DNA of 64,000 nt, from the NCBI RefSeq assembly GCF_963662735.1, contig NZ_OY759744.1, positions 2,150,153-2,214,152 on the forward strand, written 5' to 3'. This DNA is from an uncultured Methanoregula sp. GTDB lineage: Archaea > Halobacteriota > Methanomicrobia > Methanomicrobiales > Methanospirillaceae. The notes beneath the pieces are model-generated. The model did not search any database. It saw only the letters and a list, made by a program, of their open reading frames with translations, and was not told where the DNA came from. The position numbers and the translations under genes are program-made. This document shows, in pieces, positions 41,510-58,292 of the stretch (positions are counted from its first letter, which is position 1; every line of letters starts with the position of its first letter).

Positions 41510-43297
41510 ATGAAGTCAAAAATTTCCTTTACAAATGCAACATTTGGATCTCGATTGCTTGAAACAATCACTGATGGTCTTTATGATGGAAATGTAAATT
41601 GCATTAAAGAGTATGTTCAAAATTCAATCGATTCAAAAGCAAAAAACATTGAAATTTTTTTTGAAAATGGGAATCTGGATTTGATTATCAAAGATGATGG
41701 AAATGGGATGGTATATGATAAATTAGTTGATGCGCTGAAAATTGGAAAATCAGATAAAGGTGAATCAGAAGTCGGATGGAGAGGAATTGGTATATGGAGT
41801 GGTATTTCCGCATCAGAAAAATTAGTGATCATTACTAAGGCAAAAAAGCATTCTCCCTTAAAAGTTGTGATTGATAATAATAATATTCGATCTCAATATG
41901 ACTCAGAGCGAGATGCTATTGATATCTTGAATGAATCAATTAATGAAGTAGAGGAAGTTAGGTTAGCACAAGGAGAAACCCTAGAAGAATCACAATATAC
42001 TATTGTAAGATTGGAGTCCATTTTATATCCACAACAGTTTTTTTTCACACCAGAAAAAATTGAAATTTTTCTAGCAAAAACCGTACCTTCTCCATTCAAT
42101 AGTGATTTTAAACTGGGATCAAAAATTAACTCGATTCTGGAAAGTTATGAGATTCCTGTTCCGACTGTGAATATTTATTTTCAAGGGAAAAAAATTTTCA
42201 GACCGCCATATAATGATAATGTTTATTCTGATGAAATTACAATAAAAGAATTTGTTGTCAATAACGAATTAATAGCGATTGGATGGTTTCTCACAGTAAA
42301 TACAAATGATCAGCGAAAATGGCCTGATGCCGGTATTATCATTAAGAAGAAAGGTTTTACAACCGGTGATGAGAATTTAATTAGCACGATTTTTACCGGC
42401 CATTTTTATCGTTGGCAATTTGGAGAAATCCATGTTATTTCTGATAAGATCCGGGAAAATGCTGCGAGAAGTAGATTTGAGTATAATGGTGGCATTGTTC
42501 ATGAATTTATAAAATCTATTGAGGAATATATCAGTAATTTTCAACAATTTAACCGATTTAAATCTGCCAAAATCCCGGATAGAACGATCAGAAAAGCTGA
42601 AAAATCTTTAGAAGATGGGGATTTAGTTACAGCGAGAAATGCGATTGAAAAAGTTCGTGAAAGCCTTGCAAATAATCCATCTATTCCTTCAGACACTTCA
42701 TTCAAGGGAATTATTTCAACAGTTAAAAGAGAAGAAAAAAACCGCCAATCAGTACTCAAAAATCTTGATGTACAATATCAAAAAGCAAAGGAATCGAGTA
42801 AGACAGAACAAGTACGAATAAAAAGAGAGCATTATTTAGGAACTATCGGAAATTGTCGACCTGCGGTTAAAAAACAGTTTGAAAAAATTAGTAAAAAGCC
42901 AATTGAAAAATTAGAGATTAATGTTATGGAACCAGTCAAAGACCTCCTACAAAGTAAAACGGGTTTAAAAATTAATGAATTTAAAGAACTATCAAAAGAA
43001 TCCTTTGGTTGGGGCGGTGTTTCACCTGGTAATAAAGATCCCTTGATAACAATTGATCCGTTATTTAATAAAAATAATCCGGATAAAATGCGAAGAGATC
43101 GAAATATGCGATTTGGTGTGTTGATTTATGCATTGCAGGATTTGCTAGTTAATATCCCCAAACATGAATCTGGACAACAATCATTTGAATGGTTTGAAAA
43201 TACAACTGAAGAAGAGAAATATAAAATTTTAAGTGAGATGGCTGCTGTCGTAGATTTTTCATATCGATTTATTGAAAATGCGAAACAATATAAATAA
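41510..43297 (+). CDS. GHKL (Hsp90/MORC-like) ATPase
   Basis: A 595-residue protein. The N-terminal Bergerat ATP site is complete: N-box KEYVQNSIDSKAKNIEI (Glu34, Asn38, Asp41), G1 KDDGNGMVYD (62-67) and G2 GWRGIGIWSG (89-98). The middle (~200-330) looks like a transducer domain, as in MutL or Hsp90, with a KxxxNAARSRFEYNGG-like loop near 320. A coiled coil (~400-450) and a unique C-terminal domain follow. Such ATPases clamp on nucleic acids and occur in several defence systems. The gene stands between the HD gene and the convergent DGQHR gene (10-bp gap). Confidence 0.85.
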   Translation: MKSKISFTNATFGSRLLETITDGLYDGNVNCIKEYVQNSIDSKAKNIEIFFENGNLDLIIKDDGNGMVYDKLVDALKIGKSDKGESEVGWRGIGIWSGISASEKLVIITKAKKHSPLKVVIDNNNIRSQYDSERDAIDILNESINEVEEVRLAQGETLEESQYTIVRLESILYPQQFFFTPEKIEIFLAKTVPSPFNSDFKLGSKINSILESYEIPVPTVNIYFQGKKIFRPPYNDNVYSDEITIKEFVVNNELIAIGWFLTVNTNDQRKWPDAGIIIKKKGFTTGDENLISTIFTGHFYRWQFGEIHVISDKIRENAARSRFEYNGGIVHEFIKSIEEYISNFQQFNRFKSAKIPDRTIRKAEKSLEDGDLVTARNAIEKVRESLANNPSIPSDTSFKGIISTVKREEKNRQSVLKNLDVQYQKAKESSKTEQVRIKREHYLGTIGNCRPAVKKQFEKISKKPIEKLEINVMEPVKDLLQSKTGLKINEFKELSKESFGWGGVSPGNKDPLITIDPLFNKNNPDKMRRDRNMRFGVLIYALQDLLVNIPKHESGQQSFEWFENTTEEEKYKILSEMAAVVDFSYRFIENAKQYK

Positions 43298-43307
43298 TTT
43301 TTTACAT

Positions 43308-44750
43308 TTATTTAGAATTCATTAATTCTTTTGCCTGAATTATCCCCCTCTCACTCAAGACATTGAGCAAAACAATATGTGCTTTTCTCACTCCTTTTCC
43401 CCCACCTAAAAATGCAAATGGTGACGTATTTTTATCCCAATCAAAATCACTAATAGGGCCGAGGAATTTTTTTATCGATTCTTTTTCAAAGGGATCAATT
43501 CCTTCGTTAAGACACCAGGAATAGATGTCACTTGATAGATAATTGAACGCATAAATCGAAGTTGTTCGAAGCATCAGGAATTGCTTTCGTGTTTTTTGAT
43601 CAAAAGTTTCAGGGAACATTTCCCGGATAAACGCCCAATAATTTATTAAAAATATCTTTTTTTGATCAAAATTGAGCATTTTAAATTTTTTATTATCAAA
43701 AAGAGGTTTTAATGAAGATACAAATGAGAATAATGGGACAGGATGGCCATTACTTGTCGTGCCACCAAGATTGATAAGTCCCTCGAATGGTGAAGACGTT
43801 TTATTTAATTCGTTAACAACCGGAACAATTTCCGTTCTCCACTTCTCTTTTTCAATGACAGGTATACCGGTTATACCCGCCTTTAACGTTTTATATGCCA
43901 ATTCATCTTTTAAAGAGGGGTTGACCGGTTTCTGAGTTTTATTTATGATAAAGAAAAACGCGCCTTCGAGTTCTGTTTGTTTGATATTTTGCTGGCCATT
44001 TGACTCCTTTTTCATTCTCTCGACAATCGCTTTTGAATCGACAAAAACAATGGGGATTTCAAAAGATAATAAATCCGTTAATTTTTGTATTTGCTCTTCA
44101 CGATTTGGCATTGAATGCTTCATCTGTAATCGTTTAATTTCTTTGTAAACTTCCTCAAAGCCCCCGGTTCTTTGTTGACCATCTAAAATTGAGATTACAC
44201 CCGGCCTTAAAGGAATTTCCAGGGTTCCAAAATCATCATTAATTGAATTAAATTTTGAATTGCCAAAACTGGCTAATAGTGCGGGAACGATCGAGATTGA
44301 ACAACCTTCGAGATACTTTCGTATCTCACTCGTTTTTTCCCGAAATTTCTCTCTTTGATATCCGTCTAATGCTTCATCTCTCCATTGCTCCGATGTCGCG
44401 AGTAATAAGAGGTCTTTTGCCTGAATTTTCCCAATATAGAGGGGCATACCCTTTTGCTGAATTTTTATAACTTTGATTTTCAAATTGACATTTGAGATTT
44501 TTCTCCAAATCTCTTCAAGATTTTGAGAGTGGATTTTTGGATGGTTGCGATAGATATCAATTATTTCAATAACACTTAGTTTGTTGAAATCGCTCGTTAT
44601 CTCATTATGCGCAATCTTGTCAATTGTATCATTCATCTTATCAGGGAAGAATAGTGCAGGGTTATTCCAGCATTTGTTACAAACATATCTCCCATCGTAA
44701 GGACCATGACGCTTTCCTTTAATTTCAAATCCACATGATGAACAAATCAT
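43308..44750 (-). CDS. Zinc-ribbon DGQHR-domain (DndB/DpdB-like) protein
   Basis: A 480-residue protein. A zinc ribbon opens it (Cys3, 6, 24, 27). The core has IYIGKIQAKDLLLLATSEQW-type strands and the signature GVISILDGQQRTGG, with D190-G191-Q192-Q193-R194 in place of DGQHR. This superfamily includes DndB, which regulates phosphorothioate DNA modification, and DpdB of the 7-deazaguanine system. It overlaps the radical SAM gene by 4 bp, so it is last in the defence operon. It probably helps a DNA-modifying reaction or senses its products. Confidence 0.82.
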   Translation of the reverse strand: MICSSCGFEIKGKRHGPYDGRYVCNKCWNNPALFFPDKMNDTIDKIAHNEITSDFNKLSVIEIIDIYRNHPKIHSQNLEEIWRKISNVNLKIKVIKIQQKGMPLYIGKIQAKDLLLLATSEQWRDEALDGYQREKFREKTSEIRKYLEGCSISIVPALLASFGNSKFNSINDDFGTLEIPLRPGVISILDGQQRTGGFEEVYKEIKRLQMKHSMPNREEQIQKLTDLLSFEIPIVFVDSKAIVERMKKESNGQQNIKQTELEGAFFFIINKTQKPVNPSLKDELAYKTLKAGITGIPVIEKEKWRTEIVPVVNELNKTSSPFEGLINLGGTTSNGHPVPLFSFVSSLKPLFDNKKFKMLNFDQKKIFLINYWAFIREMFPETFDQKTRKQFLMLRTTSIYAFNYLSSDIYSWCLNEGIDPFEKESIKKFLGPISDFDWDKNTSPFAFLGGGKGVRKAHIVLLNVLSERGIIQAKELMNSK

Positions 44751-45829
44751 TTTGACACCTCACTCTTCTTTTCTGCATATAACTCAAAAGCCTCTTGAAA
44801 TCCCGATGCTTTGTTAAATTTATTGACCAATCCTTCGTAAGCTGGGAACGCTCCCCCATATCCGATTACTCGTCGTGCATGTTGGACAAGTTCAATTTTT
44901 TGAATATCCCAGTTTGGTGAGATGTAAGAGTTCTTTTCAATAGTGTAAAGTGATTCATACCTCATGGGGTAACACACAACTCCCCAACTGAGGATTTCTC
45001 GGACCCGGTGAAAAAATTCTTCGGGAGTGTCGGTATAATTGAATAATGTATAAACAAAGATATCCCGTTTCTTAATACCGACTTCAAGCAATCGATCAAC
45101 TGCACGTTTAACATATTTTTGCTGATCATGAGAATCGTACGCGAGGCGAACAGTAGAATCTAATTTTAAAGACGCGATCATTTTTGCTACAGGTTCTGTA
45201 ATGAGCCTCGCATCAATCCCTTGATTGAAATCAACTTTTTTATCGAAGTCAATAAGTTCCTTGAAAATGTCCATCCGGTATTTATTCGCTAGAAAATTGT
45301 TATCAAAGAAAATAATTTTTGAATGTCTCTCCATTACAAATGGCGCGATACTCTTTCTCATTGAATTCATTTTTCCTTCAAGACGAGGAACCGCACAAAA
45401 ATCGCAATTATTACAACATCCCCGTGAGGAAAAAATGATACTCCCATCCCATTGCGGTACTAAATCATAATCTGGTACTAAATCTTCTGCATCCGGGAAA
45501 AGACCCTGATAGATTTTATCTGCCCCAGACAATTTTGCATGATCGGGTAAGAGTGAAGCGTAAATACCTCCAAGCCACAATTCTGATTTTGGAAATGCAT
45601 TTTTATAAAATGCAACTGCATCCCAAACCGGTTGTTTTGCCCAGGTGAAAAGACTTGTAACGTAAATTTTCTTGGGGGTCTTTTTTGGCAACCGCTGGTC
45701 TTTTTTTTCAAAATTAATTAATTCGGTAGTATCTCCTTTGGATTTGTGATATGCGGATAGTTTCAACAGACCAACCGGTGGGAATTTGGAATAGTAAGCG
45801 GGTTCAATGAGAAGGATATGATTGGTCAT
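44747..45829 (-). CDS. Radical SAM enzyme of the phage/defence type
   Basis: A 360-residue protein. The [4Fe-4S] motif is RGCCNNCDFC: Cys138-x3-Cys142-x2-Cys145. The N-terminal ~110 residues (ILLIEPAYYSKFPPVGLLKLSAYHKSKGD) form a Rossmann-like domain as in B12-binding radical SAM enzymes, without a visible DxHxxG site. The core holds FFDNNFLANK and FNQGIDARLI, as in radical SAM proteins often found in phages. The reaction is unknown. Its 4-bp overlap with the DGQHR gene ties it to a possible DNA modification step. The upstream gene ends 70 bp away. Confidence 0.85.
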   Translation of the reverse strand: MTNHILLIEPAYYSKFPPVGLLKLSAYHKSKGDTTELINFEKKDQRLPKKTPKKIYVTSLFTWAKQPVWDAVAFYKNAFPKSELWLGGIYASLLPDHAKLSGADKIYQGLFPDAEDLVPDYDLVPQWDGSIIFSSRGCCNNCDFCAVPRLEGKMNSMRKSIAPFVMERHSKIIFFDNNFLANKYRMDIFKELIDFDKKVDFNQGIDARLITEPVAKMIASLKLDSTVRLAYDSHDQQKYVKRAVDRLLEVGIKKRDIFVYTLFNYTDTPEEFFHRVREILSWGVVCYPMRYESLYTIEKNSYISPNWDIQKIELVQHARRVIGYGGAFPAYEGLVNKFNKASGFQEAFELYAEKKSEVSK

Positions 45830-45899
45830 CTAGGATACATTTGTGATCTCCTTTATTTAAGATCTTTTATTTAGAGGATCTCCCATTATACATTGAAAG

Positions 45900-48800
45900 T
45901 CAGAGTTCAGAATATGAGATTGAAATTATTGCACATTTTTGAATTTTCCCTTCGATGCTCGCATCCATCTCATTGAATTGATCGCTTTTCCCTCGGGTTA
46001 CTCGCGAAATAGAACACCCAATAATCTGAAGAATCGTGCCCAAATTTTTGCCTTGAGAATTGATAAATACATAATTATTGATTATACCAAAATGCCCCAT
46101 TAAACAACCTAAGGCGTGTAAATCAAGATTATTTTTAAAATAATAGTGTTGGTGTTCATTTAATGCAAAACTACAATATTGTTTAAACGTATCTTTTGCC
46201 AGTGTAAATCCATTCGAATGGGCAAGTCGGTATAATTTATCGTAGGTAATTTGATTTTTTCCATCTGAAAATATTTGGGCTAATTGATTCGAAGATACAT
46301 GGCCAGACCATATATTATTGGCATCACACAACTGTCCTTCTAACTCTGCGAGATTTTGCTTTTGAATTAAAATTTTCAAAGTTTTAAAAAGGGCTGCGGT
46401 CTGCAAATCATTTAGCCAATACATTTTTTTCATGGAATCTGGAGAAAAGTCACCCATATAGTCAATTGAGTTTAAAGTCTCATAAAAAAGTCTTAAACAA
46501 TAAAACGGTTCAAAAATTTGTTCGAGAGATATCCCCTTTTCTTGTGCAAAATCCCTTAAAAGGAAATTGTCAATACTTTCACGCTCAGTTGTTTCGATAT
46601 AGAGTATTTCATCTCCTTCAGATAGATCATTTATCGGCGTTAAAATAAAATCTTCACCACTCCTCTTTCGTATCAACGTACCGCTCATAAATGATATTGT
46701 ATCCTCAGTGTTGTCATCAAATTTTATTTTAAGAACAATTTGTTCTCGCTGAATTGGTGAAATATCGGAAGAAGTTTTTGCATATTCGATATTGCTCATT
46801 GGTTTTTTTCTGCCGATTCGAGTCCAAATTTCCCTTAATGTGATTATCTCTTCTTTTTCGTCATCGGAAACACTTGATTCATTGAGCAATTCGGTTCGAA
46901 CTGCTGTATCGAAGATTGTATCTCCTTCCGCCATATTTTGGGGAGTCGAATCATCAATTGAAGGCTTTTCAGGAAAATCATACCTTTTTGATTTACTCAT
47001 CTGCTCAATTGAATAGAGTAAATCTACATTGGAAAATCTCGTCGCTTTTTCCGAAAAAATTTCTTTGTAAAGACCGAACTGTTTAGCTATCCGTTGCAGA
47101 TTTTTTCCAGGATATGCAAAAAAAACAATCTCTTTGAACGGTAAAAGGATGGCATCATACCCTTGAGAAATGAATAACTCACCATTCGAAATTGTCTGAA
47201 ATGGAACGGGTCCGGGCATTAAAAGTTTGCTTCGAATAATCTTTTCCTGAGAACTATGGCAAATTGCAGACAAATCGATCAATTCTATATTGAAATGAAT
47301 TTGGTGGGTTTTTGATGATGTGCCCGTGGAAGTAATGTATTTTATCAGATAACTCAATGAATTTGAATAAAATTTACTCACATTAGAGAAATCTGACATA
47401 TACGTTTCGAGATATTGTCCGTCTGGCGTAATTTTTACACGGAATATGTCCAATCCTGTACAATATTCCTTTTGATAATAGTTTTTATCAAATTCTTCAA
47501 TTCGAATATATGGTATTTGAATTTTTATTGCAACAGAAATTTCTAATAAATCGGGTTCTCTGTTCACTGATACTTCGAGAGGATACTTTTTTTCCCGATC
47601 GATAATGTTATGGACCTTCTCAAGAGATGGAAGTTTGAAGGAATTTCCCTCAAAAATAATTATTTCTTCAGTTCCTGCTTTTATAACAATTTTATTGGAT
47701 TTTTTAATTATGTTTGGAAATTTGATATGATTCCGCAAAAACAGAAAACTCTCGAAAAAATAGTTCAGAGAATCAAAATTATTTTTTCTAGTCTCAAAAA
47801 ATGGATGTAATTTCGGAATAATTATGCTAATCTCTTCATTTGTATTCTCCCCATTTTGAAATAGTTCAATTTTTTTAACTGCTTTTTGAATTTCCTCAAT
47901 AAGATATATCTGGAGAAGTGTTTTTTTGTTTAAAGCTGAGTATGCTCTCAACCCTCTCAATTCCCGAGATATATCCTTGCATGATTCAATGATTGAACAT
48001 AAACTTTGGAATGATTGAAATGAGTGATTATCCCCCCCAATCTTATTATTTATAAAATCTTGAATTGTGATGTATCTGATAGCTTTTATCCTGTCAATAT
48101 ATGCTCTTACCTTAATTTCTGAAGGAGTGAGAAATGAGTCGATAATTGTTGGAAATATCAGAATATTTTTTGTAAAATTATCTGCGATATTCTCAAAATT
48201 TACACTATCCCGGATATCGTGTAGCCGATTGTCAACAGTAGAATCTGAACCAATTAAGGATTTTAGAGAGATAGACGGACTGTCTTGCTGATTAGAAAGG
48301 GTGAATATTGAAATATTTGATTTATTTGCACTCTCCGGATAATATACAGTATTCCATAAATTTCCCTCTAACGAGAGTGGCAAAGCATTTTTTGGGGGCT
48401 TTTGAAATTTATTTTTTGATTCTAAGCAGAATCGTTTTCCAAAATGAAAAATCTCAATTTCGGAATCATTTTTAATATCGGGATCAGATAAAAAAGTGTT
48501 TAATCCTCTTAAGTATGGCCACGAAAAGTGTAAAACGAGTTTTAAATTTAAATTTCCTGTTTTTATAATCAATTTTTTTAAATGGTCAAATTGAAAATGC
48601 CGCTCGTTGATAGATTCTAGTATTATTAATCCCGGATTAAAATTTTCAATGTTGTAGTTTGTCTCTTTAAACTGAATTTTGCCTACTTCGGTAATATTTG
48701 AAGGAATAGAGTGTTCAATCGGAATTAAAACAATCTTAGGGCTTTTGTTATAATGTCCGTTGTGTAATTTTTCGGTAATCGCTTTTTCGTAAGCGTATCG

Positions 48801-49229
48801 GTAAGCACTTTTTCCATGAACCGGGTATTTTTCAATAATCAGATCGAATAATTCGTTATTATCTTCGTCGATTTTCCCTTTGCACCATAAAATATCCTGG
48901 TAAAAGAAAAAGGGGTTCGTTACAGAAGAATCGAGTATTTTTTTGTAAAGTAAAGAAAAATACTCCGAGGTGTATTCCTTATATTTATCTTGGAATGTGT
49001 GTTTTGGTAAACCAATCAGAACGTTATCGTTGTTTAATAATGCATAAAAGCAGGATATAAATGGAGTGATATTCAAGGGTCCTTGCGAAAAAACCAAGGT
49101 GACTCGTTTTTTCAGGATGGTATCGATTAGATCTAATGATAAGACCGAAAAATTTGATTTTTCTTTAGAATAGAGTTCAAATTGTTGGCCCGAATCTGGG
49201 ATGAAATCAATTCCCTTGAAATGCATCAT
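45900..49229 (-). CDS. Unknown 1109-residue protein of the DISARM-like operon
   Basis: A large soluble protein; ATG 49229 (a second ATG follows at once). It overlaps drmC by 4 bp. Residues ~45-90 (VTLVFSQGPLNITPFISCFYALLNNDNVLIGLPKHTFQDKY) recall a degenerate helicase entry (no Walker A Lys). A middle coiled region and a C-terminal part (~900-1109) follow, including YAKTSSDISPIQREQIVLKIKFDDNTEDTISFMSGTLIRKRSG and a possible helical domain. In class 2 DISARM, the unassigned DrmE is encoded beside drmABC; this protein may be a distant, larger DrmE. I see no methyltransferase or nuclease motif. Confidence 0.75.
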   Translation of the reverse strand: MMHFKGIDFIPDSGQQFELYSKEKSNFSVLSLDLIDTILKKRVTLVFSQGPLNITPFISCFYALLNNDNVLIGLPKHTFQDKYKEYTSEYFSLLYKKILDSSVTNPFFFYQDILWCKGKIDEDNNELFDLIIEKYPVHGKSAYRYAYEKAITEKLHNGHYNKSPKIVLIPIEHSIPSNITEVGKIQFKETNYNIENFNPGLIILESINERHFQFDHLKKLIIKTGNLNLKLVLHFSWPYLRGLNTFLSDPDIKNDSEIEIFHFGKRFCLESKNKFQKPPKNALPLSLEGNLWNTVYYPESANKSNISIFTLSNQQDSPSISLKSLIGSDSTVDNRLHDIRDSVNFENIADNFTKNILIFPTIIDSFLTPSEIKVRAYIDRIKAIRYITIQDFINNKIGGDNHSFQSFQSLCSIIESCKDISRELRGLRAYSALNKKTLLQIYLIEEIQKAVKKIELFQNGENTNEEISIIIPKLHPFFETRKNNFDSLNYFFESFLFLRNHIKFPNIIKKSNKIVIKAGTEEIIIFEGNSFKLPSLEKVHNIIDREKKYPLEVSVNREPDLLEISVAIKIQIPYIRIEEFDKNYYQKEYCTGLDIFRVKITPDGQYLETYMSDFSNVSKFYSNSLSYLIKYITSTGTSSKTHQIHFNIELIDLSAICHSSQEKIIRSKLLMPGPVPFQTISNGELFISQGYDAILLPFKEIVFFAYPGKNLQRIAKQFGLYKEIFSEKATRFSNVDLLYSIEQMSKSKRYDFPEKPSIDDSTPQNMAEGDTIFDTAVRTELLNESSVSDDEKEEIITLREIWTRIGRKKPMSNIEYAKTSSDISPIQREQIVLKIKFDDNTEDTISFMSGTLIRKRSGEDFILTPINDLSEGDEILYIETTERESIDNFLLRDFAQEKGISLEQIFEPFYCLRLFYETLNSIDYMGDFSPDSMKKMYWLNDLQTAALFKTLKILIQKQNLAELEGQLCDANNIWSGHVSSNQLAQIFSDGKNQITYDKLYRLAHSNGFTLAKDTFKQYCSFALNEHQHYYFKNNLDLHALGCLMGHFGIINNYVFINSQGKNLGTILQIIGCSISRVTRGKSDQFNEMDASIEGKIQKCAIISISYSEL

Positions 49230-50035
49230 GTCAAAACGGTCCCTTTCGAGTACATAGTATCAAAAATTTCACACAAACCCGTGACTTGAGATCCGGATAA
49301 TAGACATCCTACTTCGAAGTTAGCGATTAAACTGTTCTTTCTCAATTCTGCGCTACCAACATAGGCCAATTTGTCATCGGAAATAATTAGTTTCGCATGT
49401 GTGCTTGACAAAATTTTTCCAGATTCAGATAATAAATGATAGTCAACAATAGTGAGATTATTTTCTTTTTTCAGGTCCTTTGCTAAGTCTCGAATCCATG
49501 CAATCTCTCGCTCTCCTCTTGTTTTCAAATCCCTTGAGAGAATCCGTATTCTGACGTTCCGATTAAGAGCATTAGTCATACAGCTAATTAAATCCGGGAA
49601 AGCGTCATCATCAACTACATCAGATTGCATGAATGGTGAACAAATTCTGATGATTTGTGTTGATGAATCAATGAGTGTCCGAAAACAATCAATAGTGTCG
49701 ATCTGATCATTTCTCTGTTGAATATTTACCAATCCTAACTCTCGCAATCTTGGCTTTGAAATTACAATTTTAACCCCATCTATCTCTTTTCTATGCGGAA
49801 TAGTTTCTACGAGAAAAACGGTTGCTTGATCGCGAGATTCTCCGATCAGGTTATTGATATTGAGGAAACCTTTGTTGGCAGCGTCGATTATTACGTGCCT
49901 AATTTCTGATTCTGTTATTGTCGGAATGGCGGAATAATTCTCTATAAGTTCTTTGACAGTTGCAGATTTATTATTCGAAAGGTAATCCTGAAGATATTGT
50001 GAAATTGTTTTTTCAATATTCTGATTTATCTTCAT
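49226..50035 (-). CDS. drmC: DrmC-like phospholipase D-family protein
   Basis: A 269-residue protein with one complete HKD motif in STHAKLIISDDKLAYVGSAEL (~211-231; HxKx4D) and a less conserved first half (IIRICSPFMQSD, RIRILSRDL). The N-terminal ~70 residues form a small helical domain. DISARM DrmC belongs to this family; it is often dispensable and may be a nuclease. It overlaps drmB (4 bp) and the 1109-residue gene (4 bp), giving a tightly coupled order drmA-drmB-drmC. Confidence 0.85.
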   Translation of the reverse strand: MKINQNIEKTISQYLQDYLSNNKSATVKELIENYSAIPTITESEIRHVIIDAANKGFLNINNLIGESRDQATVFLVETIPHRKEIDGVKIVISKPRLRELGLVNIQQRNDQIDTIDCFRTLIDSSTQIIRICSPFMQSDVVDDDAFPDLISCMTNALNRNVRIRILSRDLKTRGEREIAWIRDLAKDLKKENNLTIVDYHLLSESGKILSSTHAKLIISDDKLAYVGSAELRKNSLIANFEVGCLLSGSQVTGLCEIFDTMYSKGTVLT

Positions 50036-51972
50036 GGCATGTAACCGATTTTATTCAAAAAACCTATTTCAAATCTAGGTCCCCCGACTAATGTCGAACG
50101 ATCTAAATCCTGGTTAAACCGTTCACAAACAATTTCTGGAACATAGCTACACGCGTTACATGACCCCCCCTCATCAATCATACATGCGGGATCTTGCGGG
50201 CAGTCTGATGCAATTTCATTCATTCGCTTAAACCAATCTTCAAGATGATAGTCGTACGTAAATTCTAACCCGCCAATATTCAAACCACTTGTTGAATAAA
50301 TGAAAAAGGAGGCCGTTTTTGGAAATATCCGTTCAGCTAAACTTTGAATTTCCAAGCCCGTATCAATTGTTGATTGCTGGATAAGCATGTGACAATATGT
50401 GTGCAGTAAAATCGTTATCGCTTCTTTGCAATTTTCGTTTTGAGAGATAATCGACCGGAAGTGGTTTTCGGCATCTCCCTCGAAAGGTAGGATTTTTATG
50501 GTTGGATCAATGGTCAATTTATTTCGATCAAGCCAGTACAGTAATCTAATAAAATCGAGTTGGAATACAATCCCTTCTGTTAAAAAATCCCTGACAAAAA
50601 CCGTAGGTTTTTTATTATTTCCTTCAGTGGTCATTATTGGATCAAATAGAAGAGGTTCACGCCTCGTTGATCCTGTAATCGTTCCAATAAGGGCTTGTAT
50701 CATATTGAAATTTGCAATATGGATAATTTGTTTTAGACCAAATATATCAAGCCACCCGGTAAAATCTTCTGGAGGAAAAATCGGGGCGTCCCTTTTTTTG
50801 GGAACCAATTTGCCCTTTTCTGTACTACTTACTGAAGTTAATAGAAAAAGGCCTTGTAAATCATTTTCATCAACTCCAATGTCTTTAACCTGGATCAAAG
50901 CATCCGAAATTTTTTCTACACCATAACGGCTTTTTAACCGGTTGGAATCACCCCCTTCAGAAATTTTCACTTTTACCTCTTTTATGATAGATCTAATCAG
51001 TCGTAAGAGATTCGTAGAATTCCACTCTTTTTTATCTAAAATGTTCAAGTCTAATTCTTCGCATAAATCTCCAATTTTCCTTAATTCCCAAAAAGAAGTA
51101 TCATTTTTGATTACTTCATGAAATTCAGAGAGATATAATAACGATTCTTCAAGGTTTGGTGAAAATAATTCTCTGAATGCCTCGGAAAGAAACATCCCGT
51201 CTCTATTTCTCCTCCCGGAACTATCGATTTCATATTCTTGGGGGATGTCTGGAATTGAAACAACGTATGGATGAATTATAGTCTGAGATCTTGAAGGTAC
51301 ACCTTTGAATTTTTTCTTGGGTTTTGTGGAGAGAATTTGACCCGTTTTGTGAATAGTGTGATCGCATTCATAGAAGTATAATCCTTCAGTAGAGTGACAG
51401 TGAATGCATTCAACACTATAGGAACTCAAATCGTCTTTTTTCGCCCATTTTAACTTTTTTAAAGAATTTTTTTGGGAGCATTTTTTACAATCATGATTAA
51501 TATTCGTCATCAGATGCATTGGCACATGTCTTCCACACACATCACAGGATGCGAGAAATGTGACCTGCTCCCAATCGTCATTTTCAGTATGACCGCATGT
51601 ACGGCCCTCATTAATCAAAAAATATTGATTGCACTTATCTTTTTTACAAATCGCCGCTTGTGGTGATAATTTAAAACGTCCTGAAAGTCCATCATCTTTC
51701 TCATTGTCGACAAATTTAATACCCTGGATAACAAGATTATCTGCCGAAATTAATTCTAAAGAATATCCTTCTTTTTGCCGTTGATGTATGAAATTATTCA
51801 TCAATCTTAAAAAAATTGGTTTATACCTCGCAATGTTGATTTGAGCGGATTTATCCCGATCTTCATAGTTTGCGAGAATTTCAAAGCTGAATTTATCTTT
51901 TGAAAAAAATTGACCAATATGGCCTTGGAAAAAAGCGCTATTCTCTGGAATTTTGTGTATGTCTAAGGGCAT
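50032..51972 (-). CDS. drmB: DrmB-like DUF1998 protein
   Basis: A 646-residue protein. Four or more Cys pairs in the first third (CKKDKCNQYFLI, CDVCGRHVP, CKKCSQKN, CIHCHSTEGLYFYEC) form zinc-binding modules. The C-terminus has the DUF1998 signature CMIDEGGSCNACSYVPEIVC followed by ERFNQDLDRSTLVGG (~594-630). In DISARM, DrmB partners with the DrmA helicase on DNA. Here it starts 1 bp after drmA and ends overlapping drmC. Confidence 0.88.
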   Translation of the reverse strand: MPLDIHKIPENSAFFQGHIGQFFSKDKFSFEILANYEDRDKSAQINIARYKPIFLRLMNNFIHQRQKEGYSLELISADNLVIQGIKFVDNEKDDGLSGRFKLSPQAAICKKDKCNQYFLINEGRTCGHTENDDWEQVTFLASCDVCGRHVPMHLMTNINHDCKKCSQKNSLKKLKWAKKDDLSSYSVECIHCHSTEGLYFYECDHTIHKTGQILSTKPKKKFKGVPSRSQTIIHPYVVSIPDIPQEYEIDSSGRRNRDGMFLSEAFRELFSPNLEESLLYLSEFHEVIKNDTSFWELRKIGDLCEELDLNILDKKEWNSTNLLRLIRSIIKEVKVKISEGGDSNRLKSRYGVEKISDALIQVKDIGVDENDLQGLFLLTSVSSTEKGKLVPKKRDAPIFPPEDFTGWLDIFGLKQIIHIANFNMIQALIGTITGSTRREPLLFDPIMTTEGNNKKPTVFVRDFLTEGIVFQLDFIRLLYWLDRNKLTIDPTIKILPFEGDAENHFRSIISQNENCKEAITILLHTYCHMLIQQSTIDTGLEIQSLAERIFPKTASFFIYSTSGLNIGGLEFTYDYHLEDWFKRMNEIASDCPQDPACMIDEGGSCNACSYVPEIVCERFNQDLDRSTLVGGPRFEIGFLNKIGYMP

Positions 51973-51973
51973 T

Positions 51974-54900
51974 TTAATTCCCCCTTTTCATAATTCTGTG
52001 TTTATCTTCGTTGACCATTCCAAGAATGAGCTGTTTTTGGATACCTCGCATTCCCGATTGATTTCGATAAAAATAATCTCCACTTTTCGCCAATATTTTC
52101 GGAAAGAACAAATTAGGTTTTTCATTACTTTGAACAATTTCATTGATTCGGTCTTCGACTTCCTGATGAACATTGATATCAAGAATATCCTTTCTATACA
52201 CTTTTTTTATGAATTCGACAATGTGTTTTTTATCATTTAGATCAAGGAATGTAACATCCTGTTTTCGATAGAGCGGTTTTCCTTTCAAATTTGATACATG
52301 ATTCATTACGGATGCACAAAAAATCGAATTAATGGTTTGATGTAGTCCCAAACGAGAATATCTGTTTACTGGAATTGGTTTTACCTGGTGATCCAAGGTG
52401 TCATGATACCGCTTAAAATTTCTATAGAAACTATCGTCACGAACTCGGTTAGGATAAAACCAGAGTAATATTACACCTAGTTCTTTTCTGCCAACCCGGG
52501 ATAACGCTTGAATATATTCTGATGTTGTATATGGAATCCCTTGAAAAACCATGAAGTTCAATTCTTCCAAATCGACACCATGAGAAACAACAGATGTGGC
52601 ATATAAGGGTTCGAAAATTTGACCTCCACTGATAATTTTTTGAGGAGCATATTCTTTGATATATTTTCTAACGTCGTCAATCGCTTTTTTTAAGTCTTCT
52701 AAATTTGTATCCCCGGTTAATGTTTTTCCTCCGATGCCTACATTGTATTTCGTATCTAAAACATCACCAATAACTGCATCCTTCAAACGATCCATATCGT
52801 AAACATCTTGCTTTTTGATGTGGTAGGTGAGTGGAATCAGGAAATGATTAATCACATCTTGACCTTTTGTCTTATCAGAGAGGGAATATAATTCACAAAA
52901 CCGGTCCGGATTGGAGTTCAGAAGTTTCTGTGCTTCGATAATGAATTCAATAAAATGTAGTAGTGTTCTCAGAGCAGCATAGTGATTATCTCGTAGATTT
53001 GGTTTTAACCCATAAATTATTCTTTTTGGGCCTTCGATTTGTTCAAAGAAAATATCTGTCGAAGATCCTACACCATCTGGGCATCGCCCTGGTATGATAA
53101 ATGTCTTCTTTTTATAGAGTTCGTCGATTTGTTTTTTCGTTCCATTCAAGGTCGCACTCATCGCAACATGTTTGAAAAGCCGTCCGGAGGGAAACTCAGA
53201 GATTGTTTCAATTAGTCCTTCAAAATGTGCAGATATAGTTCCAAATCCTTCTTTTAATAAGTGCATTTCATCTTGAATGGATAATCGGGGCCCTGTGACA
53301 CTTATTACATTTTTCCCGATATTTTTACATTGAAATGCTTCATCTTTTTTCTCTTCACAAATTTCTCCGGATGGTATGAATCCATGTCCATCGGGGCAAT
53401 GACTTCCACTACCCCCGAGCAATGAACGAATTCTTCGCTGAGCTGACAAAGCAGCCCATTTATCAACGGTTGATACAATTACCGTTGGCCTCCAGCGAAA
53501 TACTTCACGGTCACTGAAATAAATATGAAACTCTTCCCCACATTTGTCGCATTTGTGGATTATCCGAGCATGTTTTTCATCATCGATTAATCGCACAGTG
53601 CCCACGGGCTGAGTTGTGCAAAGAGGGCATCGTGAAATTATTATTGATTCAGGTGCAGGAGTCTTAAGAATATTTTTAGAATAGAGGGTATCTTTGATCT
53701 TTTTGTATAAATCAGGGAACTCCTCAGTATTGCCAACATAATACCCCAAAGAAAAATTATCACCGGGGAATAAATTCTCATTTTTTTTGCGGACGTGATC
53801 AGCATGGATTAAAATGCTGGATAATCGTTCAAGTTGTTGTATAGATAGCATCCGAAGAGGAAATTTAACAATGGCTGTGACACCCTCTTTTTTCCCTTGG
53901 CTTCTTTCAAAAAATGCAGTAAATACAACAAGTGCGAAATAAGCCTCTGACTTACCCCCCCCAGTATCAACATGGAGAACATCGACGACATCCAATTCGG
54001 TCTCTTTTACGACAGACTCCATGCTTGAAATGAGAAAAACTAACTGAAAAATTCTCCAACCGGCGTTTGGGATCCCTTTTGTTGAATAATAATTAGAAAA
54101 TGCTTCATTTGTTTTTAAAAACGATTCTCTCACGTTTATGTCGGTTTTTATCAGATCAATTCCTTTTGAAAATCGATTTATTAAAATGGCATTTTGCTGG
54201 ATTAATTCGTCACGCTCTCCCCAGGTTTTTTGCTTATCTCCGTCTCTTGGTTGGAAATCGACTTTGTTAAAATTCTGGGGGACATTCAGCAAATATTGAT
54301 CATGATGATCGGTCATCATTTTCAAGAGTTTTTCAAGACCCCCAATTGCTGATTCTGGGTTAATTAAATTATTAAAATTCAGATTTATTCCCATTAGCGA
54401 GACTCTAGGACGGGTATTCTCCTGTTCGAAATATCCAAAATGATCGGTAGAGAATGTTTTTCCTTTGAGGTCCCATGATGCCTGGCAATTGATTGTTCTA
54501 AATCCGTAAAAATATCTTTGTTTATGCCCCTCGTAAAGATATTCATCGGAAAATTCATCAGAGAAATTGCTGTTTAGTGTTCCTGTCAGCTTGCAATCAA
54601 AAAGAGTCCTTTCAAAATTGTCTGGCTTTTCGGGTTCTATCGTATTATTTTTGAGGTAAATTGTGACCATCAAATCTTTTTCATCGAAATCACTTACTAG
54701 TACAGAAATTTCCGCTCTCCAAATATCTTCATTTATTTTTTTATTTTCTTTTAGTAAAGGATCATTATTTGCAAGAAGTTTTACTGCAGAAAAATCAATA
54801 TTTTTTTGTTGGGAGGCTATCGGGGTTTCATTAAAAAGTTTCACATCCCAAGTATCAGAAAAACCAAGTCGTTTCCACTTTCGGATATCTCGGTATGTGT

Positions 54901-55354
54901 TTGGTTTTCGATTTTCGACCATATCCTTTTTTTCTTCAGTCTGATCTTGAATGATTTTTTCATTGATTTGATAAAACACATTTCCGGTAATTTTTAAAAT
55001 TATTTCAGAAGATTTATCAATTTTAGTTCTGTCTACAAGAAATGAAACTTTCAATCGCTGTGCTCGAATCGATGCGCGATCTTCGTTACTATCGTGAGAT
55101 GCCAAATCCTTTGCTCTTGGAGCGGCTAATGTTCCAATAATAAATTTTCTACTTGGACGGGCATCTTCGAATACTTCGTCATCAAGGTGAGTACCCGCAG
55201 TTCTTGAAATGATATATTTCACTAAATCGTTGGAAAAAACTTGTTTCGAGGATTCTATCAAAGATTCCCACCTAAATTCATATTCTGAAATTATACAAGA
55301 TATATGTATTGAGTTTGTTGCGAATCGAAAGATGATCTTGTTTTTAATTCTCAC
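51974..55354 (-). CDS. drmA: DrmA-like DISARM helicase
   Basis: A 1126-residue SF2 helicase. Walker A is DTGGGKSEAYFALVVF (~463-478), Walker B/DEAH is IQDEMHLLKEG (~692-702), motif III is VAMSATLNG, and motif VI is QALSRVGRKELG (~947-958). A zinc finger CPLCTTQPVG...CDKCGEEF sits between motifs I and II. The N-terminal ~400 residues are a family-specific domain. The start is GTG at 55354: in-frame upstream stops exclude a longer protein and there is no nearby ATG. First gene of a six-gene operon. In DISARM the DrmAB complex recognises unmodified foreign DNA ends. Confidence 0.9.
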   Translation of the reverse strand: MRIKNKIIFRFATNSIHISCIISEYEFRWESLIESSKQVFSNDLVKYIISRTAGTHLDDEVFEDARPSRKFIIGTLAAPRAKDLASHDSNEDRASIRAQRLKVSFLVDRTKIDKSSEIILKITGNVFYQINEKIIQDQTEEKKDMVENRKPNTYRDIRKWKRLGFSDTWDVKLFNETPIASQQKNIDFSAVKLLANNDPLLKENKKINEDIWRAEISVLVSDFDEKDLMVTIYLKNNTIEPEKPDNFERTLFDCKLTGTLNSNFSDEFSDEYLYEGHKQRYFYGFRTINCQASWDLKGKTFSTDHFGYFEQENTRPRVSLMGINLNFNNLINPESAIGGLEKLLKMMTDHHDQYLLNVPQNFNKVDFQPRDGDKQKTWGERDELIQQNAILINRFSKGIDLIKTDINVRESFLKTNEAFSNYYSTKGIPNAGWRIFQLVFLISSMESVVKETELDVVDVLHVDTGGGKSEAYFALVVFTAFFERSQGKKEGVTAIVKFPLRMLSIQQLERLSSILIHADHVRKKNENLFPGDNFSLGYYVGNTEEFPDLYKKIKDTLYSKNILKTPAPESIIISRCPLCTTQPVGTVRLIDDEKHARIIHKCDKCGEEFHIYFSDREVFRWRPTVIVSTVDKWAALSAQRRIRSLLGGSGSHCPDGHGFIPSGEICEEKKDEAFQCKNIGKNVISVTGPRLSIQDEMHLLKEGFGTISAHFEGLIETISEFPSGRLFKHVAMSATLNGTKKQIDELYKKKTFIIPGRCPDGVGSSTDIFFEQIEGPKRIIYGLKPNLRDNHYAALRTLLHFIEFIIEAQKLLNSNPDRFCELYSLSDKTKGQDVINHFLIPLTYHIKKQDVYDMDRLKDAVIGDVLDTKYNVGIGGKTLTGDTNLEDLKKAIDDVRKYIKEYAPQKIISGGQIFEPLYATSVVSHGVDLEELNFMVFQGIPYTTSEYIQALSRVGRKELGVILLWFYPNRVRDDSFYRNFKRYHDTLDHQVKPIPVNRYSRLGLHQTINSIFCASVMNHVSNLKGKPLYRKQDVTFLDLNDKKHIVEFIKKVYRKDILDINVHQEVEDRINEIVQSNEKPNLFFPKILAKSGDYFYRNQSGMRGIQKQLILGMVNEDKHRIMKRGN

Positions 55355-55453: not shown

Positions 55454-57379
55454 TCAGATATCACACAAGTCTTCCGTCTTTTCTTCCATTATCTCTCCAG
55501 TTATCCCAACACTCACCATCTCCCTCACCCCCGCCCCCACCAGCGCTTCATACGTCGCCCGCATCCCAATCTCATTCGGCACAAACACAATAAATCCATC
55601 CCGACCCCGGGTCAATAACACCCGATAACTATTCACTCGCAGCCGGTGCGGATCCTTAGCTTTAGACCGGGAAGATGGCGGACTCTTCCATTCCCCACTC
55701 CAGGTAAAATCATCGCCCCAACAGACAATCGGGAAATCAAGTTCAAGTCCTTGGCAGGAAAACTCCGTCGCCACATCGCGTAACGCACAGCAAGAATTCC
55801 GAGAGTTAGGGGGATCGTTATACCACGGACCTTCCCGCATATTCTTCGTGTAATTGTATTCATTGTGGACGTCAAAACGAGGAAGGTTCTTCGCCTTCGA
55901 GGATGCGAGCAATCCATAGCGTTTGTCCTCTTGGCCTCTGTACCGCTCCTGTACATAATTCGTTGCAACGTTGAGATCCTGCGTGATGTATACATCAAAT
56001 CCTTGATCCATGACGCGATCTGCCAAGATTTTAGCATTGTGCAGATTCCCTTCAAGAATTGCAGAGATCCATTGCGCAACATCCTCCGCTAGATGTGATC
56101 GAAGAGTAATGGAGAGATCGAGAACATCAGTTGTCACGCATTTCTTTACAACTGGAAAATTACCGGCTATTTTCTCCGGACAATGCACAACCCAAGGTTT
56201 CTGCATTTTAACAAGAGCATCATTCCATTGTGCCAAACCTGATTCTTCGCCAAGGTGAATTTCTTGTCCTTCGCCAATGAGAGCTACCATCAAACCCCAC
56301 GAGTTCATCCGCTCCGCCAAGCGTAAGAAATCTTCAGGCTCGCTCGTGGCATGGCCCCGTTTTTCGTTCACTCGTTCGGCATCCCACGCTCGTTGGGCTT
56401 CATCATAAACCCAGATATGTTCATGGGGGATCTTTTCAGTTGCTCCGCCATACTCTTTCAAAAATCCATGCACATCTTGAACAAAAATGGAATTCTTCAA
56501 GGCATGTTTGAGGACTTTCACGAGAGGCCCATTTCCCGAGAGAAATACCGCATTGTTCCGAAGGTCGGAACTATCCAGGTGATTCTCATACACTAATTGA
56601 ATGCCAACAAGCGTTTTCCCAGCACCAGGAACACCAGTCACGAGAGCGAGATGCAATTCATTCTTCGCTTGTGCCTCTTGGGCAATGGAGATGAGTTCCG
56701 CAATCGTCTGAGGAATGCCGGCGCTCAATGCTCGCTTGATCTGAGGGAGCGGTTGTTTTCCCCAAATTGTCCGTGCAGCTTGTATCAATGACGGAAGCGG
56801 AGCATATTCTGCAGCAATCCAAAGCGTTGGATCAATCAAAGCTCCGGTTTCCAATTCTGATTGGAGAGTTAAGACATCAGCAATATGGTCCGATGAAATG
56901 ACAATGACATCCTCATCAAGCGATATACGATCCTTTGCTCGGGCAAGAACAAGAATTGGGATAACGGTGTGGTTTTGTGATGCAGAATGAAAATGCTGCA
57001 AATCGCGAGCATACGCAGCAACTTGATCGCTATGGGCTTGGAGGCGTTGTGCATAATCCTTGAATTCAAGAACAAAGACGCACGGCCCTAATATAACAAC
57101 ATCCGGTCGCCGCCCACGTTCACGGGGCAATTCATATTCAAAAATGATAGAATAGTTTCCAATTTCGGGTTTGATCTGAACGAGTTGTCGCAATTCTTTT
57201 TGTAAAATATCAAATTCATGCTTCCATGCAAGAATCTGACTTTGATCAGCAGGCGCATTCATGCACCGTTGATGATGCCCCTCTAATGCGATGAGCCATG
57301 CGGCTTTTGAGATAGAGAGAAACGTGTGAATAGTTCCTGACCAGCCGCAAGGTGTATTCTGCACATCCAAAGAAAACAA
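55454..57379 (-). CDS. DUF2075 (Schlafen-like) ATPase
   Basis: A 641-residue protein. Walker A VTGVPGAGKTLVGIQL (~244-258) and a B-like HIWVYDEAQRAWD (~320-332) mark a DUF2075 helicase/ATPase of the Schlafen-3-like group. The N-terminal ~200 residues contain VVILGPCVFVLEFKDYA, a nuclease-like strand (DxxxxxxxxxxEFK). The C-terminal ALRDVATEFSCQGLELDFPIVCWGDDF and VNSYRVLLTRGRDGFIVFVP match UvrD-like motifs V and VI. The only in-frame starts are non-ATG (TTG 57379, or earlier codons after a stop near 57430). Its base composition is intermediate, so it may have joined the island separately. Confidence 0.85.
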   Translation of the reverse strand: MFSLDVQNTPCGWSGTIHTFLSISKAAWLIALEGHHQRCMNAPADQSQILAWKHEFDILQKELRQLVQIKPEIGNYSIIFEYELPRERGRRPDVVILGPCVFVLEFKDYAQRLQAHSDQVAAYARDLQHFHSASQNHTVIPILVLARAKDRISLDEDVIVISSDHIADVLTLQSELETGALIDPTLWIAAEYAPLPSLIQAARTIWGKQPLPQIKRALSAGIPQTIAELISIAQEAQAKNELHLALVTGVPGAGKTLVGIQLVYENHLDSSDLRNNAVFLSGNGPLVKVLKHALKNSIFVQDVHGFLKEYGGATEKIPHEHIWVYDEAQRAWDAERVNEKRGHATSEPEDFLRLAERMNSWGLMVALIGEGQEIHLGEESGLAQWNDALVKMQKPWVVHCPEKIAGNFPVVKKCVTTDVLDLSITLRSHLAEDVAQWISAILEGNLHNAKILADRVMDQGFDVYITQDLNVATNYVQERYRGQEDKRYGLLASSKAKNLPRFDVHNEYNYTKNMREGPWYNDPPNSRNSCCALRDVATEFSCQGLELDFPIVCWGDDFTWSGEWKSPPSSRSKAKDPHRLRVNSYRVLLTRGRDGFIVFVPNEIGMRATYEALVGAGVREMVSVGITGEIMEEKTEDLCDI

Positions 57380-57542: not shown

Positions 57543-58292
57543 TTAGAATTGTGGTTTCTTTGATAGTGTTGAATTCCTAACCGGGATATTGAGATTATTT
57601 TGGTCTAAAATTCTTTGGACGTTGTTAAGAAGTTTGATATCAATATCTTCAGCCCCCGGTTTTGGATATAAGACAATTTCTTCAATTAGATCAGCGGGAT
57701 CGATCCTGACATATCCTCCACGATCAGAAAAAGTGGGATTTGGCGGATCATTTTTTATTATCATTCGTATTTCGTTTTCCCCGGAGAACTCATTTTTTTT
57801 GAGAGAGAACAAAGAGATCAGATCCAAATCTTTTTTGAAAGAATCCTTATCAAAATCTGAATATTTTACACGTCTAATGTGTATTTCGTTCGGTGATTCG
57901 TCTCGGAGTGATTCCTTCAATCTCCCCAAAGTTGTTCTTATTGCGATTCCTTGATTTAATTCTGAATATTTATCCCACATATGCGTTAGTTCATGATTCT
58001 TATTGCAAAAACAGCAAATATACATCAAATTACGTTCGGCATTTGAGAATTTTTTCAATCGATAATAAGGGCTTCCCCATGCTCTTCCCCATGGAGTGCG
58101 ACCCCATCCACCTTTTTTTTGTTTGAGATAGTCATCGGGACATGAACCCTCAAAAGGCTCGCCTAACATATCCCATCGAGAGAAATAAAGACCGGTGTTC
58201 CGGATCAATTCTTCAAAACGAGAAAATTTCATGTATCTCCACAAGGGTGTTGATTCAATGAGATTTTCCTCAATATCGAAATTGCATTTCAT
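57543..58292 (-). CDS. DUF2971 protein
   Basis: A 249-residue protein, ATG 58292. LWRYMKFSRFEELIRNTGLYFSRWDMLGEPFEGSCPDDYL and YICCFCNKNHELTHMWDKYSELNQGIAIRTT match DUF2971, whose members are often encoded in defence or mobile regions and have been compared to ADP-ribosylating toxins. No adjacent immunity gene is seen. It precedes the DUF2075 gene by 160 bp on the same strand. Function unproven. Confidence 0.78.
   Translation of the reverse strand: MKCNFDIEENLIESTPLWRYMKFSRFEELIRNTGLYFSRWDMLGEPFEGSCPDDYLKQKKGGWGRTPWGRAWGSPYYRLKKFSNAERNLMYICCFCNKNHELTHMWDKYSELNQGIAIRTTLGRLKESLRDESPNEIHIRRVKYSDFDKDSFKKDLDLISLFSLKKNEFSGENEIRMIIKNDPPNPTFSDRGGYVRIDPADLIEEIVLYPKPGAEDIDIKLLNNVQRILDQNNLNIPVRNSTLSKKPQF

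Follow-up and report, generated by a model that had tools for sequence, protein, structure and literature searches.

We analysed a stretch of 64,000 nucleotides from an uncultured Methanoregula sp. (positions 2150153-2214152 of a 2.82 Mb single-contig genome; hereafter the window). On its minus strand, at window positions 43308-55354, lies a run of six genes that begins with the DISARM genes drmA, drmB and drmC and continues with a gene for a 1109-residue protein (U1109), a gene for a radical S-adenosylmethionine (SAM) enzyme (hereafter rSAM) and a gene for a protein of the DGQHR family. All six open reading frames (ORFs) are intact, and the intergenic distances from drmA to the DGQHR gene are 1, -4, -4, 70 and -4 bp. 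The operon is as a preliminary description of this DNA, made from the letters alone, had drawn it, with gaps of 1-70 bp or 4-bp overlaps.

The first three genes encode recognisable DISARM proteins. drmA (51974-55354, minus strand) has a GTG start and encodes a superfamily 2 (SF2) helicase of 1126 aa with a DEMH motif. It matches the PADLOC DrmA model (9.8e-92) and NCBIfam DrmAS (1.4e-82, yet under the equivalog cut-off) and can be aligned to the solved DrmA of Serratia (7s9v). drmB (50032-51972, minus) encodes a DrmB-family protein of 646 aa (PADLOC 1.4e-17), whose match to NCBIfam NF038324 (5.4e-16) covers the C-terminal part only and reaches 58.5 bits against a cut-off of 240; it gave no match to Pfam DUF1998 at E <= 1. 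drmC (49226-50035, minus) encodes a phospholipase D (PLD)-family protein of 269 aa with a single HKD motif at residue 213 (PF13091 6.9e-13; PADLOC DrmC 8e-14).

U1109 (45900-49229, minus) had been described as an unknown, and on the evidence of sequence profiles we correct this to a divergent DrmE. In loci L063 and L072 the gene in the place of U1109 matches NF038316 (2.4e-16 and 1.4e-25) and Pfam DrmE_C (1.2e-15 and 1.5e-13). When six U1109 rows were compared by hhalign with these two DrmE-like rows, columns 28-396 of U1109 were aligned with a probability of 95 and an E value of 3e-8. Direct Pfam DrmE matches were under the cut-off (0.12 for the window protein, 0.0053 for its homologue in L073), and three other U1109 proteins had no direct hidden Markov model (HMM) match to DrmE. 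The predicted structure of U1109 is poor, with a mean predicted local distance difference test (pLDDT) score of 64.8. The profile-profile match led us to reject U1109 as a novel protein. Class 2 DISARM consists of drmA, drmB, drmC, drmE and drmMII, and because U1109 is a divergent DrmE, the layout is class-2-like. As in class 2 DISARM of Halorhabdus tiamatea (L158) and the similar locus of Lactiplantibacillus plantarum (L163), one gene run in the window encodes DrmA and DrmB together with a PLD protein of DrmC type and a member of the DrmE family; the window differs in having a radical SAM gene in place of the DNA methyltransferase, a very divergent DrmE of 1109 aa and an altered DrmA sensor motif.

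The rSAM gene (44747-45829, minus) encodes a protein of 360 aa with a CxxxCxxC motif (C138, C142 and C145), whose cysteines are invariant in 59 aligned sequences. The Pfam Radical_SAM match is sub-threshold (17.9 against 29.5 bits), and a search of PDB sequences found no relative at E <= 0.01. We assign the protein to the radical SAM family despite the marginal Pfam score because its fold is predicted with confidence: the AlphaFold2 model (pLDDT 93.6, predicted template modelling score 0.90) has a B12-binding-type Rossmann domain and a radical SAM barrel. VIA matched the model over its whole length to AprD4 (Z 25.9, root-mean-square deviation (rmsd) 3.0, 334 residues aligned) and MgmA (Z 23.0, rmsd 3.3, 300 aligned), and further to TsrM (Z 22.5, rmsd 3.0, 323 aligned) and MiaB (Z 21.7, rmsd 3.9, 312 aligned). 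As modelled, then, the protein has the fold of B12-type radical SAM enzymes, a family that includes C-methylases and MiaB. It has the whole-length fold and the CxxxCxxC motif in common with TsrM, MgmA, OxsB, TokK, CysS, AprD4 and MiaB/RimO, but is at most 17% identical to them in structural alignments. To our knowledge, no DNA-modification role has been described for any of these enzymes.

The DGQHR protein (43308-44750, minus) is DndB/DpdB-like, has 480 aa and reads DGQQR at residue 190, with an N-terminal CxxC...CxxC zinc ribbon; D190, G191, Q192 and R194 are invariant in an alignment of 16 sequences. It scores 96.1 bits with TIGR03187 (cut-off 58.85), matches Pfam DndB above the cut-off (2.8e-14) and PADLOC DpdB (1.5e-14), and stays under the equivalog cut-offs of DpdB and Dnd-DGQHR. 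Its profile found nothing better than E 0.47 among PDB sequences.

A repeated link between drmAB and rSAM had been set beforehand as the test of this arrangement, and it was found. Four rSAM query sequences were searched against 392 genomes of the phylum (E <= 1e-20) and found rSAM in 25 of them, while DrmA was found in 20 (E <= 1e-60). Nine of the 20 drmA genomes (G000, G073, G293, G174, G230, G290, G314, G342 and G389) have rSAM in the same gene run, and these are all the genomes having both. The co-occurrence has P = 4e-7 over the 392 genomes; like the Fisher value below, this treats the loci as more independent than they are, because the rSAM-linked DrmA proteins form one clade. G005, of the same genus as the window, is a tenth genome with rSAM and drmA. 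A pattern scan of one genome for each of 84,980 species returned 476 rSAM relatives, the best 80 of which were read; with 16 from other searches they make up 96 loci annotated by purpose-built HMMs. DISARM genes stand beside rSAM in 13 of the 96 loci, or in 14 loci counting the window. Outside this screen are the fetched rSAM loci L014, L016, L020-L022, L025-L031, L065-L068, L070 and L074-L076; those whose genes were listed have no DISARM or Pbe genes.

Gene content and order vary among these loci. The locus of another Methanoregula (L018, G005) has the same six genes in the same order with 77-86% identity, and in two Methanoculleus genomes (L019/L032 and L202) the six genes recur with the rSAM-DGQHR pair upstream of drmA. 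Other orders are rSAM-drmABCE in G174 and drmABCE-rSAM in G230, G389 and G314. DrmC was unrecognised in L072 and L098 and doubtful in L189, and L092, which lies on the opposite strand close to the edge of a contig, showed only part of the DISARM core. Methanoculleus sediminis S3Fa (L082) also carries rSAM with DISARM. The preliminary description had treated rSAM and DGQHR as a pair. Of the two, rSAM is the constant partner, and DGQHR accompanies rSAM in only five of the 14 DISARM loci. It is very improbable that the six genes are unrelated neighbours in a defence island: the operon is flanked by defence-like genes (a Schlafen-group-3 helicase matching PDC-S41 and a DUF2971 gene matching PDC-S31), but the 4-bp overlaps and the co-occurrence speak against this, and linkage in 14 loci and two gene orders led us to reject a chance neighbourhood.

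We searched for five families of DNA methyltransferases (PF00145, PF01555, PF02384, PF07669 and PF02086). None matched in the 64-kb window at the E limits used, which bears out the earlier report of no methyltransferase in it, and elsewhere in the genome these families come no closer to the operon than about 130 kb. Of the 11 loci without rSAM among 21 DrmA genomes, 10 have a match to the C5 methyltransferase family PF00145 at most about 12 kb away from drmA; such a match was found on the locus contig in none of the 10 rSAM genomes, eight of which have none genome-wide (rSAM against rSAM-less loci, Fisher 3.4e-5). In the eleventh rSAM-less locus (G184), drmA is about 6 kb away from a gene for an HmaB-like adenine methyltransferase (PADLOC 2.5e-48). 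In none of the 10 rSAM genomes did PF01555, PF02384 and PF07669, searched in 21 genomes, or PF02086, searched in 11, match on the locus contig at a distance of up to 50 kb, as far as the contigs extend; about 60 kb off, G293 has a single weak partial methyltransferase match. The five families were unmatched genome-wide at the limits used in G314 and G174, both 99% complete. With no C5 methyltransferase on any of the 10 locus contigs and two genomes free of all five families, no methyltransferase always accompanies the locus, and a hidden one as the constant partner was rejected. A DNA methyltransferase is annotated in seven of the eight DISARM loci that were read on plasmids. Purpose-built HMMs for C5, N6, N4/N6 and Dam methyltransferases and for DndC, each made from one to five sequences, had no match in the 96 loci, although this screen is incomplete and missed a type IIG enzyme in L088. 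Because there is no DNA methyltransferase, we file the system as DISARM-like and not as canonical DISARM.

The same rSAM module also adjoins a second set of effectors. In G034 (L017), of the same genus as the window, PbeA (5e-223) and PbeC (6e-121) genes adjoin rSAM-DGQHR in place of the DISARM genes; its rSAM is 85% and its DGQHR 77% identical to those of the window, and G034 has no DrmA match. None of the ten window proteins scanned with PADLOC matched a Pbe family (for DrmC, among the best 25 of 29 families). PbeA- or PbeC-like genes were found by purpose-built HMMs in 16 of the 96 rSAM loci, 15 of them distinct (L064 = L097); Methanohalophilus euhalobius WG-1MB (L097) is one carrier. A search of three Pbe-rSAM genomes (G034, G382 and G381) found neither a C5 methyltransferase nor a DndC that passes the cut-off, and PF02086 has one distant match in G034. 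The genome of the window has a partial, sub-threshold DndC match only (36 bits, cut-off 290). Four plasmid Pbe loci were read. Their annotation shows a DNA methyltransferase or dnd genes in three and a phosphorothioation-associated gene in the fourth, and a radical SAM gene in none. In a tree of 93 rSAM sequences, which excludes L097 as a duplicate and three loci that lacked a qualifying ORF, the DISARM and Pbe labels each need 10 changes; well-supported branches force at least nine of those for DISARM and all 10 of those for Pbe. The window rSAM is sister to the Pbe-linked rSAM of L017 (100/92). The module has therefore moved repeatedly between DISARM and Pbe effector types.

According to the accessible part of PMC6459918, archaeal PbeABCD without the phosphorothioate mark made by DndCDEA gives zero protection, and 165 of 553 PbeAC homologues have no nearby modification gene (Xiong et al.). 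In the text of PMC10853773 that was available, Rakesh et al. pair these systems with phosphorothioation or cytosine methylases, and radical SAM is cited only for DndC chemistry. The published partners of Pbe are phosphorothioation or methylation, and the radical SAM family described here is unmentioned in those parts of the two papers; the window differs from these PbeABCD or CxC ABC-ATPase-DndE systems in that its effectors are those of DISARM, while in other loci, including one of the same genus (L017), PbeA-PbeC adjoins close relatives of its rSAM-DGQHR.

Our main argument for a DNA mark made by rSAM is that the published partner in that slot makes one in both DISARM and Pbe, and the recurrence of rSAM beside two mark-dependent defence systems suggests a previously unrecognised self-DNA marking. 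We consider it fairly probable that the operon is a DISARM-like DrmABCE antiviral system in which rSAM, here with DGQHR, replaces the DNA methyltransferase as the marker. The variant first proposed, DISARM with a radical SAM enzyme in place of the methyltransferase, stands with two adjustments: DGQHR is optional, and the supposed unknown is DrmE. The genes present, their recurrent linkage, the lack of the methyltransferase in loci with rSAM, the exchange between two effector sets that depend on DNA modification, the fold of the enzyme and the changed DrmA motif are direct results. We infer that DNA is the substrate of rSAM, and the same holds for the identity of the mark and all catalytic and sensing steps. 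To place a carbon-centred mark on host DNA, with methyl or methylthio as the likeliest group, rSAM would employ SAM and a [4Fe-4S] cluster, and perhaps cobalamin. Its action on DNA may be aided by the DGQHR protein, a ParB-like NTPase, or in other loci by a GHKL ATPase, like that of the Dpd enzymes by DpdB. The mark would restrain DrmAB, unmarked DNA with 5' ends would activate it, and DrmC and DrmE may help to execute the attack. The rSAM module would be an exchangeable cassette that also serves PbeABCD-type effectors.

An effector role for rSAM, as a maker of antiviral nucleotide analogues in the manner of prokaryotic viperins or as a modifier of tRNA or of a protein of the system, is unlikely. 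Viperin is a radical SAM antiviral (PMC12926258, from the part available), in another conflict system a peptide effector is proposed to be the likely target of a radical SAM domain (PMC7159879, likewise), and the tRNA-modifying MiaB is among the structural matches. However, where rSAM is present it is the methyltransferase that is absent and not an effector gene, and both effector sets paired with rSAM usually partner DNA modifiers, as in the plasmid DISARM loci above and in Pbe phosphorothioation. The whole-length fold, too, is that of B12-type enzymes and MiaB/RimO, while viperin matches the barrel only (Z 11.0).

DrmA itself differs at the segment proposed to sense methylation. In the accessible text of PMC9142583, V1296 of Serratia DrmA contacts a DNA base and is the proposed methylation sensor, and 5-methylcytosine DNA lowers the ATPase activity of DrmAB. 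V1296 is the V of SMREVE, as counted in an alignment ending at residue 1302. At this site all 13 rSAM-linked DrmA rows read [ML]RG[IM]Q as against none of 19 others, which read [ML]R[DN][VITM][DEG]; the 19 rows are 18 distinct, as L158 and L190 are the same one. In the window the C-terminal motif is MRGIQ where a sensor motif like MR[DEN]VE is otherwise found. The rSAM-linked clade is sister to archaeal DrmA of loci without rSAM, most of them with DrmE and a C5 methyltransferase. The change in the sensor segment is consistent with a different mark, although it may have happened just once, in this clade. Because the segment differs with the modification enzyme, these loci offer a natural test of mark reading by DrmA in the V1296 region.

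A system with no mark at all, in which DrmAB would discriminate by DNA ends through the DrmA trigger loop and rSAM and DGQHR would be regulators or accessory proteins, seems to us quite doubtful. Serratia DrmAB favours 5' overhangs regardless of sequence, and methylated DNA retains some stimulation of its ATPase (PMC9142583, same part), and DGQHR is missing from most of the DISARM loci with rSAM. Against such a system, rSAM is kept in the gene run in distant lineages and in two gene orders, with the CxxxCxxC cysteines unchanged in all 59 aligned sequences, and it also recurs beside Pbe, a system that is ineffective when DNA is unmarked (PMC6459918, as above).

Relatives of the module extend beyond the two effector sets. 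The rSAM family with DGQHR and GHKL genes also occurs on alphaproteobacterial plasmids (L012, L013 and L015), where the order DGQHR - radical SAM (about 540 aa) - GHKL ATPase stands by PIN-like and ATP-binding genes; this related module is without DISARM or Pbe genes. On viral contigs, an rSAM relative overlaps a weakly matching PAPS-reductase-like gene (L025:9223-10930, 0.0011) and another lies near a C5 methyltransferase (L031:6800-9355). P0003, searched in plasmids and viral contigs, had no relative. It is improbable that rSAM acts on invading DNA, altering or removing phage base modifications and so exposing that DNA to the effectors. Phages often modify their DNA, relatives of rSAM occur on plasmids and in viral contigs, and the present data fit either DNA as the substrate. 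Against this, rSAM occupies the slot otherwise held by a gene that marks host DNA, and a phage-borne rSAM could mark the DNA of the phage itself, which is equally consistent with rSAM as a marker. Whether one family of B12-type radical SAM enzymes marks DNA for immunity in archaea and bacteria with a new modification that arises by radical chemistry, with a mobile cassette of rSAM and DGQHR or GHKL providing the self-mark for effectors otherwise unrelated to each other (the DISARM core, PbeABCD and perhaps more), and with relatives used by phages, we judge to be an even question.

Several points weigh against rSAM as a self-DNA marker. The best structural match, AprD4, is a dehydratase, and methyl transfer and cobalamin binding by rSAM are putative. 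All 13 rSAM-linked DrmA proteins form one clade (support 100/100), and the methyltransferase exclusivity and the DrmA motif change may each be one event. Other methyltransferases exist elsewhere in the Methanoregula genome. In four of the rSAM-less loci (G283, G374, G157 and G405) the C5 methyltransferase is 8-11.5 kb from drmA and may not be part of DISARM. Five of the rSAM contigs measure only 10-65 kb, and some of the genomes are incomplete (66-91%). In the part of the plasmid DISARM locus L157 that was read, no methyltransferase is annotated. In the Chloroflexi locus L088 the gene run that holds rSAM also includes a type IIG restriction-methyltransferase (Pfam, PADLOC), so that rSAM and a methyltransferase can coexist, and phage contig L031 has a C5 methyltransferase close to rSAM. 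G005 has a true DndC above the cut-off on another contig, the sole one among 13 genomes searched. The optional nature of DGQHR also counts here, as it is absent from nine of the 14 DISARM loci. Finally, 36 of the 93 rows of the rSAM tree lack DISARM, Pbe and GHKL genes alike, and in another 16 GHKL is the only one of the three.

Like the window, Dpd (7-deazaguanine) and Dnd (phosphorothioation) have a DGQHR/ParB-like protein (DpdB, DndB) that accompanies the modification enzyme; unlike in those systems, the enzyme partner here is a radical SAM protein, and DndC is sub-threshold. In the available part of PMC12839542, DpdB is a ParB-like ATPase that drives Dpd base insertion and is dispensable in some clusters, and we take it as the best analogue for an optional DGQHR. 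We found no report of a linkage of this rSAM to DISARM, Dnd, MORC or DNA modification in the open-access papers searched, a scope with subscription papers and preprints largely outside it; radical SAM is treated in the accessible parts of PMC9716671, PMC12926258 and PMC11208441 in connection with other subjects. The module appears to be a new marking module on a DISARM-like core, with rSAM serving swappable effectors. If so, a mark made by radical chemistry would join the self-marks known from the immune systems of bacteria and archaea, and it may account for part of the PbeAC homologues listed without a nearby modification gene in PMC6459918.

A GHKL (MutL/Hsp90-type) ATPase gene (41510-43297, plus strand; PF13589 3.2e-16) is convergent with the operon and ends 10 bp off the DGQHR stop. 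Its product is 38% identical over 592 aa to that of the GHKL gene adjoining the rSAM and Pbe genes in L064, and GHKL adjoins rSAM in many related loci. GHKL accompanies rSAM in two of the 13 DISARM loci, to which the window adds its convergent gene, and we regard the ATPase as a possible member of the system. It is preceded by a gene for an HD-domain dGTPase-like protein (39996-41360, plus), also convergent with the operon and possibly part of the system. Both a GHKL gene and a mad8-like gene, a relative of a 560-aa gene, are present in 12 of the 96 rSAM loci. A recurrent set of four genes, coding for proteins of about 390 and about 560 aa, a GHKL ATPase and an rSAM of about 470-600 aa, is found at L023:5004-11262 and L136:5545-11398. 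The 560-aa gene of L023 matches PADLOC mad8 (7e-11) and its L136 homologue has no mad8 match at E <= 0.001; because the mad8 reading rests on the lone L023 match, we do not claim a third, methylation-linked partner.

At L062:13334-17287 and L080:11069-14911, rSAM-DGQHR is followed by a protein of 780-791 aa with a DndB/DpdB domain and a PDC-M34B match; that of L062 is also weakly Swt1-like HEPN, and it may be a further effector in these two loci. Beside the G005 locus (L018:2152-6723) are genes for a calcineurin-like phosphoesterase, a 712-aa ORC-CDC6-like ATPase (PF24389) and a 366-aa protein without a Pfam match. The rSAM gene at L020:11175-12330 (G079) is split across two frames and is perhaps broken or misread.

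Just upstream of drmA in the window, at 55454-57379 (minus), is a gene for a Schlafen-group-3 helicase (PADLOC PDC-S41 1.1e-135) that also has a weak NERD domain. A copy with 74.5% identity lies at L017:14944-16965 (minus), near the rSAM-DGQHR-Pbe locus of G034; the interval between rSAM-DGQHR and this helicase holds the DISARM genes in the window, and the Pbe genes and two others in G034. The DUF2971 gene (57543-58292, minus; PADLOC PDC-S31 1.2e-20) is a further defence candidate. At 21737-24454 (plus) the window encodes a multi-PAS histidine kinase of 905 aa with a receiver domain, part of which resembles the products of rSAM-adjacent genes of 748-750 aa in L065 and L066.

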